A stretch of 38,303 bases of DNA from Bacteroidota bacterium (GTDB lineage Bacteria > Bacteroidota > Bacteroidia > Flavobacteriales_F > PHOS-HE28): assembly GCA_014584605.1 (NCBI GenBank), contig JACTMO010000034.1, positions 1 to 38,303 on the forward strand, read 5' to 3'. Positions 2,523 through 18,774 of this stretch are shown one piece after another. Position 1 is the stretch's first letter. Each line of letters begins with the position of its first letter. The notes beneath the pieces were generated by a model, which saw only the letters and a program-made list of their open reading frames with translations, ran no database searches and was not told the origin of the DNA. A program made the translations under genes and the position numbers.

Positions 2523-4547
2523 ATGCGTACAAGCATGTTCCTGGCCTGCCTCGGCGCCGGCCTGTTGACCTCCACTGTGGCGATGGGCCAGACCAAGCTC
2601 GCCGAGGAGGCCGATGCAGCCTTCAGCAAGGGGTATTACTTCAACGCCATCGAGCTCTACAAGAAGGCCTATACCACCGAGAAGAAGGCCAGCGAGAAGG
2701 CCGGCCTGATCTTCAAGGTGGGTGAGTGCTACCGCGTGCTCGGCGATGCCCAGCAGGCCGCCATCTGGTACGAGAAGGCGAACAAGGCCCAGTATTCCGA
2801 CCCCATCACCTATTTCCACATCGGTGAGGCGCTCAAGGAGCAGGGCAAGTACGCCGAGGCCATCGCCGCCTACAACAAATACAAGGAGAAGAACCCCGGC
2901 GACATGCGCGCCGATGCCGGCATCAGCGCCTGCCAGGTCGCCCAGCAGTGGAAGGACAACCCCAGCCGCTACAGCGTGGACCCCGAGGTGCTGCTCAACT
3001 CCCAGCAGTACGACCTCACCCCCGCCTTCAGCGACAAAAAGAACGAGGACGTGGTGTTCACCTCCACCCGCGCCGCCAGCACGGGCACCAACACCGACCA
3101 GATCATCGGCGAGGCCTTCAGCGACCTGTTCGCAAGCAGCCGCGACAAACTGGGCAAATGGAGCGAGCCGGTGAAGCTGCCCCCCAGCATCAACACCGAG
3201 GGCAACGAGGGCGCGCCCATCTTCAACGCCAAGCGTTCCATCATGTATTTCACCCGCTGCGCCTATGAGAAGAACAAGGTGCATGGCTGCGAGATCTGGA
3301 TCACCAAGAAGGTGGGCAGCAACTACAGCGAGCCCGAGCTCCTGGCCCTGCGCCCGGCCAACGCCGGCAAGGAGAACAAGCTGGACACCCCCGTGGTCAC
3401 CATGGGCCACCCGGCCCTCAGCCCGGACGACAAGGTGCTCTTCTTCAGCAGCAACATGAAGGGCGGCCAGGGCGGCAAGGACATCTGGATGGTGAACCTC
3501 GACAAGGACGGCAAGCCCGTGGGCGCCCCGACCAACCTGGGCGCTGAGATCAACACCAAGAAGGACGAGATGTTCCCCTTCAACCGGCACGACGGCAGCC
3601 TGTACTTCAGCAGCGATGGACACCCCGGCATGGGTGGCCTGGACATCTTCCGCGCGGAAAAGACCGGCGACAACAGTTGGGGCCAGGTGGAGAACGTCAA
3701 GTACCCCATCAACGGCCCGGCGGACGACTTCGGGATCATCTTCGACGGCGAGGAGGAGCGCGGCTACTTCACCAGCAACCGCCCGGGCGGCAAAGGCCAG
3801 GACGACATCTGGCGCTTCTACATGCCCGACCTGGTTTTCGCCCTGCAGGGCACCGTGTTCGACAAGGAGACCAGCACCCCGCTGCCCGGGGCCAAGATCG
3901 AGGTGGTGGGCACCGACGGCACCAGCTACAACGCCCTGGCCGATGACAACGGCGGCTTCGCCTTCGCCGAGAACGGCCGCGACCGCTTCATCAAGGAGAA
4001 CACCACCTACACCATCCGCGTCAGCAAGGACGAATACCTGGTGGTGAACGACCAGATCACCACCGTGGGCCTGGACGAGAGCACCACCTTCGTGAAGGAG
4101 TACTTCCTGCAGCCCGCCCGCAAGGACGTGGTGATCAAAATGCCCGAAGTGCAGTACGAGCTGGGCAGCTTCGCCCTCACCCAGGCCGGCAGGGATTCGC
4201 TGGAGTTCCTCTTCGCCACCCTCACGGAGAACCCCACCATCGTGATCGAGCTGGCGGCCCACACCGACTCGCGCGATACCGACAAGCGCAACCAGGTGCT
4301 CTCGGAGAACCGCGCCAAGAGCTGCGTGAACTACCTCGTGAGCAAAGGCATCGACCCGGCCCGGATGCAGGCCGCAGGCTACGGGGAGACCCGGCTCCGG
4401 ATCAGCGACGCCGAGATCGCCAAGATGAAGACCAAGGAGGAGCAGGAGGCGGCCCACCAGATGAACCGGCGTACCGAGTTCCGCGTGCTCAGCTTCGACC
4501 ACGTGCCCAAGGAGCAGGTCCCGCAGGCCCCGGCGCCCAACAATTAG
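2523..4547 (+). CDS. PorE-like TPR / beta-propeller / OmpA peptidoglycan-binding protein
   Basis: 674-residue exported envelope protein. Domains in order: signal peptide (1-22, cleavage likely after AMG before QTK), TPR repeats (about 25-140), a PD40/WD40-type beta-propeller (about 155-435, with FTSTRA, LFFSSNMKGGQGGKDIW, LYFSSDG and YFTSNRPGGKGQDDIW blades), a carboxypeptidase-regulatory-like fold (about 437-535, starting LVFALQGTVFDKET), and an OmpA C-terminal domain (about 540-660) with the peptidoglycan-contact pattern HTDSRDTDKRNQVLSENRA. This order and length match PorE (PG1058) of the type IX secretion machinery, which tethers it to peptidoglycan. Unlike PorE, no lipobox is apparent in a usable position. 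Many Bacteroidota carry paralogues with this architecture, so assignment to T9SS is likely but not certain. A strong terminator follows directly. Confidence 0.85.
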   Translation: MRTSMFLACLGAGLLTSTVAMGQTKLAEEADAAFSKGYYFNAIELYKKAYTTEKKASEKAGLIFKVGECYRVLGDAQQAAIWYEKANKAQYSDPITYFHIGEALKEQGKYAEAIAAYNKYKEKNPGDMRADAGISACQVAQQWKDNPSRYSVDPEVLLNSQQYDLTPAFSDKKNEDVVFTSTRAASTGTNTDQIIGEAFSDLFASSRDKLGKWSEPVKLPPSINTEGNEGAPIFNAKRSIMYFTRCAYEKNKVHGCEIWITKKVGSNYSEPELLALRPANAGKENKLDTPVVTMGHPALSPDDKVLFFSSNMKGGQGGKDIWMVNLDKDGKPVGAPTNLGAEINTKKDEMFPFNRHDGSLYFSSDGHPGMGGLDIFRAEKTGDNSWGQVENVKYPINGPADDFGIIFDGEEERGYFTSNRPGGKGQDDIWRFYMPDLVFALQGTVFDKETSTPLPGAKIEVVGTDGTSYNALADDNGGFAFAENGRDRFIKENTTYTIRVSKDEYLVVNDQITTVGLDESTTFVKEYFLQPARKDVVIKMPEVQYELGSFALTQAGRDSLEFLFATLTENPTIVIELAAHTDSRDTDKRNQVLSENRAKSCVNYLVSKGIDPARMQAAGYGETRLRISDAEIAKMKTKEEQEAAHQMNRRTEFRVLSFDHVPKEQVPQAPAPNN

Positions 4548-11417: not shown

Positions 11418-11501
11418 GGAAGGGGGATGATGATGGACTGTACACGCGACCGTGAGCGGGGTTCGGACCGGACTACGCCGGTCGATCCGCATCTTCGCCC
11501 C

Positions 11502-12404
11502 ATGCGCATCCTTGTCACCGGCAGTAACGGCCTGTTGGGTCAGAAGCTCGTGGGCGCCCTGCGCGACCGGCCGGACATGGCCCTCACCGCCACCAGCCGC
11601 GGTGCCGATCGCAGCCCCGTGCCGCTGGGCGGTCGCTACCGCTCCCTGGACATCACGGAGGTCCGCGCCGTGGACGCCGTGTTCGATGCCGTACGCCCCG
11701 AAGTGCTGATCCATACGGCGGCCATGACCAACGTGGACGCCTGCGAGCAGGACCCCGGGGCCTGCCGGCTACAGAACGTGACGGCCACAGAAAACCTGGT
11801 ACGGGCAGCCCGGCGGCATGGCACCCACTTCATCCATCTCAGCACCGACTTCATCTTCGATGGCCTGGCAGGCCCCTACCGCGAGGAGGACGAGCCAGCC
11901 CCCCTGAGCGTGTACGGCCACAGCAAGCTGGAAAGCGAGCGGGCCGTGCGCGAAGGCGGTCTGGCGCAATGGGCCATCGCCCGCACGATCATCGTGTACG
12001 GTGTGGCCCCGGGCCTTAGCCGCAGCAACGTGGTGCTGTGGGCCAAGGCGGCCCTGGAGAAAGGCGAACCCCTGCGTGTTGTGGACGACCAATGGCGCAT
12101 GCCCACCCTGGCCGAGGACCTCGCCGACGGATGCATCCGCATCGCCCGTCGCGGTGCCACGGGCATCTTCCATCTCAGTGGTCCGGACGGCATGAGCATC
12201 CTGGAACTGGTCCACCGGGTGGGGGTGTTCTTCGGGCTGGATACCTCGGTCGTGTCCCCGGTGAAGAGCGACACCCTGGGCCAGCCCGCGCGGCGCCCGC
12301 CACGCACCGGCTTTGTGCTGGACAAGGCCCGGCGCGACCTGGGCTATGCACCGCGCGGCTTCGAGCAAGGCCTGGCCCTGCTGCGGGCGCAGCTCGCCGG
12401 GTAG
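11502..12404 (+). CDS. RmlD-like SDR family NAD(P)-dependent sugar reductase
   Basis: 300-residue extended short-chain dehydrogenase. It has the N-terminal Rossmann motif TGSNGLLGQ (6-14), HTAAMTNVDACEQDP, LSTDFIFDG, and the catalytic Tyr-Lys pair (Y138, K142 in VYGHSKLE). These are the hallmarks of dTDP-4-dehydrorhamnose reductase (RmlD/RfbD), but no rmlA, rmlB or rmlC is nearby, so the exact sugar substrate is unproven. The start at 11502 gives the standard MRILVTGSNG opening. Its TAG stop codon is formed by the end of an inserted mobile element (12402-12567); without the insertion the frame would end at the same place with TAA. CATCTTCG at 11490-11497, 4 nt before the ATG, is a possible degenerate -7 box. 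Confidence 0.9.
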   Translation: MRILVTGSNGLLGQKLVGALRDRPDMALTATSRGADRSPVPLGGRYRSLDITEVRAVDAVFDAVRPEVLIHTAAMTNVDACEQDPGACRLQNVTATENLVRAARRHGTHFIHLSTDFIFDGLAGPYREEDEPAPLSVYGHSKLESERAVREGGLAQWAIARTIIVYGVAPGLSRSNVVLWAKAALEKGEPLRVVDDQWRMPTLAEDLADGCIRIARRGATGIFHLSGPDGMSILELVHRVGVFFGLDTSVVSPVKSDTLGQPARRPPRTGFVLDKARRDLGYAPRGFEQGLALLRAQLAG

Positions 12405-12567
12405 TGTCGCAATTCGGAAGCTGGTCTTCCAAAGCTGGGCTACTGATCTTTCTGCCTGCAAGGCGGAACACGGATGCCGTAGTGGGCGCTACGGCGAAGT
12501 GGTCCAACGCCGCAGGAAGGAAAATGAGGGGCGGAGATGGTGTAAGAACTTCCGGATCGCGACACTA
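12402..12567. mobile_element. MITE-like element, 166 bp, with terminal inverted repeats and TA ends
   Basis: The left end tagtgtcgcaattcggaag (12402-12420) and the reverse complement of the right end (12549-12567) match at 17 of 19 positions. Both ends begin with TA, the target duplication of Tc1/mariner and IS630-type transposons, leaving inverted repeats that start GTGTCGC. There is no transposase frame inside, so it would be non-autonomous. Internal structure includes a perfect 7-bp hairpin (GCCGTAG at 12476-12482 with CTACGGC at 12489-12495) and a GGAAG/CTTCC hairpin next to the left end. It separates the RmlD-like gene from the helix-hairpin-helix gene. No second copy is in this window. 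Confidence 0.8.
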
Positions 12568-12598: not shown

Positions 12599-13537
12599 AT
12601 GCCCCGCACCGGTTGGAAGGATGCCTTCGCCATGCATCGCGCCGAAAGGCGTGGCCTGCTGGCCCTCCTGCTGTTGATGGCGGCCTTCGGCGTCTGGGTG
12701 GCCGTGCAGCGGAACCGTCCGCCCGACCCGGAGCTGGTGGCTGCTGCAGAGGCCCGGCTGGCGGCCTGGATGGCCGAGCAACAGGCCGCCGACAGTGCGA
12801 TGCGCAACGGCCCCACCGTTGGCACGGGGAGCGACAGCCTCTTCGCCTTCGACCCCAACCGCGCCACGGCCGAAGAGTGGTGGCGCCTGGGGCTGAGCGC
12901 GCGTCAGGTGTCCGGCGTGCTGAGCTACATCGCCCATGGCGGTCGTTTCGAGCACAGGGAGGACCTGGCCCGCTTGCGCACCCTGCGCCCCGAGCAGGTA
13001 ACACGCCTGCTGCCCTACGTGGAGCTGCCCGACCGCAGGGAGGGTGGGGGAGCACCGCGCAGCAGACGGCCATGGGAGGCTGATAGCACCCGTCGATGGG
13101 CCCGGGCGGAGCGCCCTGCCGCACCGGAACGGCGCCCCCTGGAGCTGAACGGGTGTGACAGCGCGGCCCTGGTGGCCCTGCCGGGCGTGGGCCCTTCGTT
13201 CGCACGCGGCATCCTGCGCTACCGCGAGCAGCTGGGCGGGTACCACAGCCTCGACCAGTTGGCCGAGGTGTACGTGTTGCAGGACAAGCCCGAGGCGCTG
13301 GTGCACCTGCGCCAGTTGCTGTGGGTGGACACCGCGCTGGTGCGGCAGGTGCCCATGAACAGCGGCAGCGTGGAGCAGCTGGCCGCCCATCCCTATCTGC
13401 GGTGGAAGCTGGCCAAGGCCCTGGTGGCCTACCGGCGCCAGCATGGCCCCTTCCGCACCCTGAACGACCTGCGGGGCTGTGCGTTGGTCGATGAAGGGAT
13501 GCTCCGTACTTTCGCGCCCTATTTTTCCGTGAAGTAA
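12599..13537 (+). CDS. Membrane-anchored helix-hairpin-helix (ComEA-like) protein
   Basis: 312-residue protein with a short basic N-terminus, one transmembrane segment (about 19-36, LLALLLLMAAFGVWVAV), a linker, and repeated helix-hairpin-helix DNA-binding motifs. These are FDPNRATAEEWWRLGLSARQVSGVLSY in the first third, ELNGCDSAALVALPGVGPSFARGILRYREQLGGY in the middle, and a degenerate C-terminal unit ending in RTFAPYFSVK. Such proteins resemble ComEA, which binds DNA outside the inner membrane during uptake, but no competence genes are adjacent and the role is unproven. The ATG at 12599 is used; the ATG at 12632 (MHRAERRG) is an equally plausible start. The stop overlaps the apt start (TAATG), so the two are translationally coupled. 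Confidence 0.83.
   Translation: MPRTGWKDAFAMHRAERRGLLALLLLMAAFGVWVAVQRNRPPDPELVAAAEARLAAWMAEQQAADSAMRNGPTVGTGSDSLFAFDPNRATAEEWWRLGLSARQVSGVLSYIAHGGRFEHREDLARLRTLRPEQVTRLLPYVELPDRREGGGAPRSRRPWEADSTRRWARAERPAAPERRPLELNGCDSAALVALPGVGPSFARGILRYREQLGGYHSLDQLAEVYVLQDKPEALVHLRQLLWVDTALVRQVPMNSGSVEQLAAHPYLRWKLAKALVAYRRQHGPFRTLNDLRGCALVDEGMLRTFAPYFSVK
13507..13514 (+). promoter_or_regulatory. Candidate -7-like box upstream of apt
   Basis: TACTTTCG inside the end of the preceding gene, 22 nt before the apt ATG. Identical in sequence to the boxes upstream of the PorE-like gene and namZ. It could give apt its own transcript, but position within coding sequence weakens the case. Confidence 0.25.
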
Positions 13538-16906: not shown

Positions 16907-16979
16907 GCCAATGTAGCTCAGCTGGTAGAGCAGCTGATTTGTAATCAGCAGGTCGGGGGTTCGAGTCCGTCCATTGGCT
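16907..16979 (+). tRNA. tRNA-Thr(TGT)
   Basis: 73-nt cloverleaf. Acceptor stem GCCAATG pairs with CATTGGC, anticodon arm GCTGA-TTTGTAA-TCAGC carries TGT, and the T loop has GTTCGAGTC. CCA is not encoded. First of four tRNAs ahead of tuf. Confidence 0.97.
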
Positions 16980-16993
16980 CCGTGATCGGAACA

Positions 16994-17079
16994 GGGGAGA
17001 TACCCAAGCGGCCAACGGGGGCAGACTGTAAATCTGCTGCTTCACAGCTTCGTAGGTTCGAATCCTGCTCTCCCCACCA
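16994..17079 (+). tRNA. tRNA-Tyr(GTA)
   Basis: Class II tRNA with a long variable arm. Acceptor stem GGGGAGA pairs with TCTCCCC, the anticodon loop CTGTAAA carries GTA, and T loop GTTCGAATC is present. Unlike its neighbours it appears to encode its 3' CCA (17077-17079). Confidence 0.96.
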
Positions 17080-17132
17080 ATTGCTCACGGAGCCATGTCC
17101 CGGCCTGCACCCTTGGATCGGCCAACCTTCAA

Positions 17133-17205
17133 GCGGGAGTAGCTCAGTTGGTAGAGCATCAGCCTTCCAAGCTGAATGTCGCGGGTTCGAGTCTCGTCTC
17201 CCGCT
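17133..17205 (+). tRNA. tRNA-Gly(TCC)
   Basis: 73-nt cloverleaf. Acceptor GCGGGAG pairs with CTCCCGC, anticodon loop CTTCCAA carries TCC, T loop GTTCGAGTC. No encoded CCA. Confidence 0.97.
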
Positions 17206-17264
17206 CTTCCACCCAACGGAGGCCGGGCGCCCACAGGCCCGCAACGCCCTCCACCAGAACATCG

Positions 17265-17336
<72 letters not shown>

Positions 17337-17438
17337 CCGCCGGACCGGCTGCGGCTCCATCCCGCCCCAAGCGGGGAGGCACGTGCGACAGGTGAACGGA
17401 CAGATCGACAACAGAACACCCATAACGACCGAACGACA

Positions 17439-18626
<1,188 letters not shown>

Positions 18627-18647
18627 GCCAAGCAACCCAGGTGGCCG

Positions 18648-18677
18648 GGCCGGTCCGCCGAAAGGTGGACCGGCCTT
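18648..18677 (+). terminator. GAAA-tetraloop hairpin after tuf
   Basis: A 12-bp stem (18648-18659 with 18664-18675, one G-T wobble) is capped by a GAAA tetraloop and followed by only TTCG. It may be a partial terminator or a processing and stability element between tuf and tRNA-Trp. The poor T tract argues against full termination. Confidence 0.5.
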
Positions 18678-18701
18678 CGCCGCCGAAAATGGACACAACG
18701 A

Positions 18702-18774
18702 ACGGGTGTAGCTCAATTGGTAGAGCGACGGTCTCCAAAACCGTAGGCTGCGGGTTCGATTCCTGCCACCCGTG
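18702..18774 (+). tRNA. tRNA-Trp(CCA)
   Basis: 73-nt cloverleaf. Acceptor ACGGGTG pairs with CACCCGT, discriminator G. Anticodon arm ACGGT-CTCCAAA-ACCGT carries CCA, T loop GTTCGATTC. It sits directly between tuf and secE; the secE frame opens at its 3' end. Confidence 0.97.

Follow-up and report, generated by a model that had tools for sequence, protein, structure and literature searches.

A genus-specific family of probably non-autonomous mobile palindromes associated with CTAG sites in a Bacteroidota bacterium

Introduction

A 166-bp segment with inverted ends lies between two genes on contig JACTMO010000034.1 (assembly GCA_014584605.1) of a Bacteroidota bacterium, and the question raised by this locus is whether the segment is a local regulatory palindrome or a copy of a mobile element and, in the latter case, which kind of enzyme may have moved it. 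The window analyzed here is the whole stretch of 38,303 nucleotides in which the segment is found. Small gene-less elements of bacterial genomes offer several models for comparison. RUP, NEMIS/Correia and Nezha are linked to IS630, whereas ERIC (RU-1) sequences are extragenic, full-length imperfect palindromes of constant length for which, to our knowledge, there is no autonomous partner. The former three are listed as MITEs (PMC3733652), and PMC2759123 gives a size of 127 bp for the ERIC/RU-1 sequences of enterobacteria. The original prediction, made from the letters of the window, assigned the segment to the Tc1/mariner or IS630-type MITEs.

Results and Discussion

The ends of the segment (12402-12567) match in inverted orientation at 17 of 19 positions, TAGTGTCGCAATTCGGAAG at 12402 against the reverse complement of the 3' end TAGTGTCGCGATCCGGAAG, as had been predicted, and a scan of the window for inverted ends of this quality at a spacing of 150-199 bp returned this pair alone, block-shuffled windows giving a mean of 0.125. 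Including the flanking TA dinucleotides the element occupies 12402-12567 on the forward strand, with a core of 162 bp (12404-12565) bounded by a left terminal inverted repeat, GTGTCGCAATTCGGAAGCT (12404-12422, forward strand), and a right one, GTGTCGCGATCCGGAAGTT (12547-12565, reverse strand). The location between an RmlD-like and a helix-hairpin-helix gene was borne out by domain matches: the former (11427-12404, forward strand; PF04321, E 3.7e-64) ends with an in-frame TAG at 12402-12404, which forms the left boundary of the element and whose G is the element's first base, and the latter (12599-13537, forward strand; HHH_3, E 6.1e-28) starts about 33 bp past the element. In the same window five tRNA genes are clustered at 16907-18774 (Rfam), and a neighboring ORF displays, by eye, a sorting-type C-terminal sequence.

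The prediction had also described an interior with hairpins and no gene. The segment is indeed gene-less, but the separate hairpins proved to be parts of one imperfect, interrupted hairpin that extends over its full length, with a folding energy of -74.4 kcal/mol for the 166 nt (z = -5.5; none of 200 shuffles was equally stable). On the forward strand, a terminal helix is formed by a 5' arm at 12406-12427 and a 3' arm at 12542-12563, followed by an internal loop whose two sides face each other at 12428-12439 and 12530-12541, by the middle helices (5' arm 12448-12471, 3' arm 12499-12523) and by an apical hairpin at 12475-12496, in which 12475-12483 pairs with 12488-12496.

The element is not confined to this locus. 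Searches covered 45 draft genomes of the genus, among them the window's own genome (G000) and a congener (G016), and, outside the genus, 23 genomes that belong to other families within the class. G000 carries about 26 copies and a few remnants, and G016 about 25 copies; another 12 genomes of the genus hold one to three degenerate copies each, which gives 14 of the 45 with the element, and none of the 23 genomes from other families contains it. Almost every complete copy has the same length, 162 bp from one flanking dinucleotide to the other, and the similarity of any two compared copies stops at the element boundaries. As similarity between species is likewise confined within the boundaries, the loci differ from one species to another. 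Moreover, for six of the G016 copies relatives were found with continuous flanks and the element absent, at 70-80% identity, a level too low for reading off a target duplication; at two of these sites (L107 and L111) the relatives have an ordinary stop codon where G016 carries the insertion. The window copy itself had no orthologue of its locus among the retrieved loci. Multiple copies, fixed length, sharp ends and element-free sites together point to a dispersed mobile element and contradict a single-copy local regulatory palindrome, so that both the multiple copies and the empty sites anticipated in the original prediction were observed, and the non-autonomous mobile character of the element is supported. 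Dispersed copies with common boundaries, inverted ends, non-coding sequence, a length within 70-300 bp and absence from orthologous sites are all displayed by this family, as in MITEs in the broad sense.

The copies in G016 deviate on average by 2.4% from their own consensus and share a mean pairwise identity of 96%, which indicates that amplification there was recent. The window copy, in contrast, is among the older ones, with 76% identity to the G016 consensus, and clusters together with one on contig C50. No match to the element was obtained in Rfam, nor in viral contigs or plasmids, and an exact match to the 19-base end occurred once in the genome_contigs collection, in Rosenbergiella, about the chance expectation in 257 Gb. 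Irregular copies include a mini-derivative of about 50 bp in G016 (L126, C81, 492-541), which consists of the two ends only with CTAG on either side, and a 309-bp copy in G000 (L079, C15, 1172-1485) with about 147 bp of extra sequence ahead of the right end. At three contig ends of G000 (C8:31170-31295, L076; C44:77999-78222, L012; C2:1, L280) one copy is split by an IS1634-like insertion sequence, where the contigs break; the single ends on C8 and C44, which had looked as if they might belong to a longer element, correspond to the two sides of this split copy.

Overall, we consider it likely that the window element represents an old member of a family of mobile palindromes that is restricted to the genus and non-autonomous (MITEs in the broad sense), inserted at the TA of CTAG by a transposase acting in trans. 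Copies are flanked as CTA-G...C-TAG (hyphens mark the element boundaries), and the TA noted earlier at both ends is present in the window copy and in most copies of the family, being replaced at about a quarter of ends. In G016, 33 of 44 ends read CTA-G and the others mostly CTC-G or CCA-G, the non-CTAG ends of young copies being CTCG, CCAG or similar; G000 ends read TTA-G, CTA-G, CTG-G and others. A preference of IS630 for TA within CTAG is stated in the title of a reference listed in PMC2170065. However, since TA is its own reverse complement, a duplication and fixed ends look alike, and the left and right dinucleotides of G016 agree in 13 of 22 copies against a shuffled expectation of 13.1. 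For G000 the agreement is 10 of 18 against 7.5 (p 0.10), with two 3-bp matches against 0.4 expected (p 0.02). CTAG is itself rare: 400 kb of G016 (L243-L262) contain 68 sites where models expect 390-1393, a 6-20 fold deficit for which restriction or repair may be responsible. The boundaries may reflect either a duplication that was later eroded, CTAG being avoided in the genome, or an insertion without duplication.

The independent variation of left and right boundary sequences in G016, and the fact that mismatched copies mostly retain CTAG at one side, would also suit a site-specific recombinase, of the tyrosine or serine type, that exchanges a short CTAG or TA core through a circular form, one flank then being the core of the previous site. 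Yet nothing is conserved outside CTAG, no recombinase is linked to the element, and a few copies in G000 show direct matches that are not palindromic (TCA/TCA, TTA/TTA, TG/TG). Since CTAG is so rare in the genome, CTAG ends may simply disappear quickly once the element has inserted; we regard a recombinase as quite improbable.

The stop codon at the left boundary of the window copy is not an isolated case. According to a simple and crude codon-usage gene caller, trained on 400 kb of G016 and run on the flanks, 11 of the 25 G016 copies begin or end exactly on the stop codon of a gene (L111 being counted via its relatives), in one case a stop common to two converging genes (L127), and so do about seven copies in G000, that of the window among them. 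Compared with all CTAG sites, for which the background was taken from G016 only (9 of 68), the G016 copies are in excess at stop codons (p 0.003). Likewise, a single G016 copy of 25 (L120, judged by eye) lies within coding sequence, against 37 of the 68 background sites (p 4e-6). When only non-coding positions are compared, 11 of 24 copies against 9 of 31 CTAG sites, the difference vanishes (p 0.26), and specific targeting of stop codons is not needed beyond that of CTAG: the pattern is accounted for by CTAG targeting and the loss of those insertions that break genes. In L120 (G016, C45) the element sits directly after the cysteine in what is likely a lipoprotein signal peptide, and the gene is probably broken.

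For the preferred reading, a trans-acting transposase, we hypothesize the following course. The enzyme would have recognized the element by its inverted ends and placed it at the TA inside CTAG, as IS630-type enzymes do. This rare target includes the stop codon TAG on either strand; insertions within genes would be lost, and the surviving copies would accumulate at gene ends, where the TAG of the host gene, for example that of the RmlD-like gene, would be rebuilt from TA and the first G of the element. The enzyme would now be absent from G000 and G016, or would have been missed in them.

The gene-end location and a strong compensatory change in the stems may alternatively suggest a structured element of use to the host, either a hairpin protecting the 3' end of mRNA or a boundary, selected in place and mobile only secondarily. 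In an alignment of 27 copies from eleven genomes (A1), double compensatory changes were found in 30 of 48 stem pairs (98 cells against 24 when shuffled), including 15 of the 20 pairs of the terminal helix, and 93.7% of cells are paired, a proportion that falls to 39-53% when the arms are slid by 1-3 columns; in the apical hairpin it reaches 98% over the 27 copies. Even species with one divergent copy keep 43-48 of the 48 pairs, the G024 copy keeping 37. Nevertheless, the orientation relative to the stop-bearing gene is about half each way, the loci differ between species, and the window element displays neither an Rfam match nor a U-run of the terminator type, and we regard a host function kept by selection at these sites as very improbable.

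Alignment columns 28-39 and 130-141, the central stretch that forms the internal loop, are unpaired in all 27 copies, with 2-7 of 12 positions pairable, and consequently the arms are not merely copied onto each other; hairpin-templated repair was accordingly rejected as the only cause of the covariation. The stem may be conserved because transposition depends on pairing, through a shifting specificity for the ends, or for tolerance by the host. A covarying hairpin over the full length exceeds what the terminal repeats of a MITE require; an ordinary MITE would not be expected to show such compensatory change, which counts against one. The enzyme may read the whole folded shape, as a single strand or a cruciform, in place of an end sequence, and insert at CTAG without duplication, stop codons being safe sites; we judge this unlikely.

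Several searches were directed at the moving enzyme. A longer transposon of this family would carry the ends GTGTCGCAACCCGTAAGTT or GTGTGGTGGCCCCTAAGTT, and the transposase families covered were IS481, Y1, DDE_3 and DDE_Tnp_1. A full-length transposon with the same ends, which would identify the enzyme, was not found by end pattern in the 45 draft genomes of the genus, in whose assembly gaps it could lie; the paired ends are about 162 bp apart and none are spaced as in a transposon. Likewise, no transposase with matching ends emerged from the end pattern or from the IS630, IS4/IS5-type and IS481 searches. The IS630-type transposases of G000, G016, G001, G024 and others have unrelated terminal repeats, TTGAGTCGGCGG... 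or TACTGAGCCGGTG.... IS481 elements target CTAG and have TGT...ACA ends, and the corresponding search gave only weak IS3/IS630-like matches. As for PF01609, G000 contains one IS1634-like element, that which interrupted one copy, and elsewhere fragments were found. A further copy in G000 (L078, C34, about 3740-3885) is interrupted by a nested small IS630-type MITE with ends TTGAGTCGGYGGATCAA (TTGAGTCGGTGGATCAA ... TTGATCCGCCGACTC) resembling those of the resident IS630, which suggests, from the resemblance of these ends, that the resident IS630 may serve another family than the CTAG palindrome. The assignment to Tc1/mariner-IS630 is therefore partly supported: the TA/CTAG boundary makes it plausible from the target, the unrelated ends of the resident IS630 and the failure to find a longer element with these ends in the 45 genomes leave it unproven from the enzyme, and the flank agreement in G016 is at the shuffled level.

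A different enzyme, a RAYT (TnpA-REP tyrosine transposase), would move the folded single strand with cuts at CT-AG at both feet and with no need for a target duplication, as in REPINs. Full hairpins with compensatory changes are reported for REPINs (PMC3116915), TnpA-REP cuts at CT (PMC8266576), and G000 and G016 have exactly one Y1_Tnp match each. In G000 this RAYT-like gene ends with a TAG at the boundary of an element copy (L223, C43, 2057-2674 and 2675-2825), a coincidence that, given about 26 copies and a genome of several thousand genes, is unlikely by chance, but not extraordinary. That copy, however, is placed between the RAYT stop and the RAYT's own REP pair CAGGCGTCCCGCCTG, as expected of a secondary insertion; the inverted REP pairs that border RAYTs in this genus, such as CAGGCGTCCCGCCTG or CACCGGCTTCCAGCCGGTG, are their own and bear no relation to the element, and the adjacency is one-sided and seen in G000 only, no copy lying near the RAYT of G016. 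In addition, G059, G060 and G061 have the element and no Y1 match, many genomes have Y1 genes and no element, and flanks such as CTCAG/CTCAG and CTTAG/CTTAG better fit a duplication. The RAYT was rejected as the cognate enzyme, and a REPIN-like mode of movement appears rather improbable.

The palindrome represents a new family within an established type of element, the mobile non-autonomous palindromes. It resembles the IS630/Tc1-mariner-derived MITEs (RUP, NEMIS/Correia, Nezha) in being short and gene-less, with inverted ends, TA boundaries and the CTAG context preferred by IS630, and differs from them in that no IS630 with matching ends was found in its hosts, TA duplication is indistinguishable from fixed ends, and covariation extends over the whole length and not the ends alone. 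With ERIC/RU-1 it shares a full-length imperfect palindrome, extragenic location, fixed length and the lack of a known autonomous partner; by description, not by sequence, the differences are the hosts, the CTAG target and the stop-codon placement. Like REPINs it is dispersed outside genes, folds into a long hairpin with compensatory changes and has CT at the possible cut site, but its ends lack a GTAG-type REP, its terminal repeats are not themselves hairpins, and different REPs flank the RAYTs of the genus.

The family adds recently active small mobile palindromes to a high-GC genus, in which the CTAG rule makes insertion at stop codons nearly harmless, and the compensatory changes along its whole stem point, in a way open to testing, to a role of the folded shape in spread or in tolerance by the host. 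The element is an ordinary one if a DDE transposase moves it, whereas any other enzyme would imply a new mechanism. Among the IS630 elements encountered, one appears identical in two species together with one flanking gene (L264, G024:C96; L274, G020:C53), which suggests recent transfer or cross-contamination.
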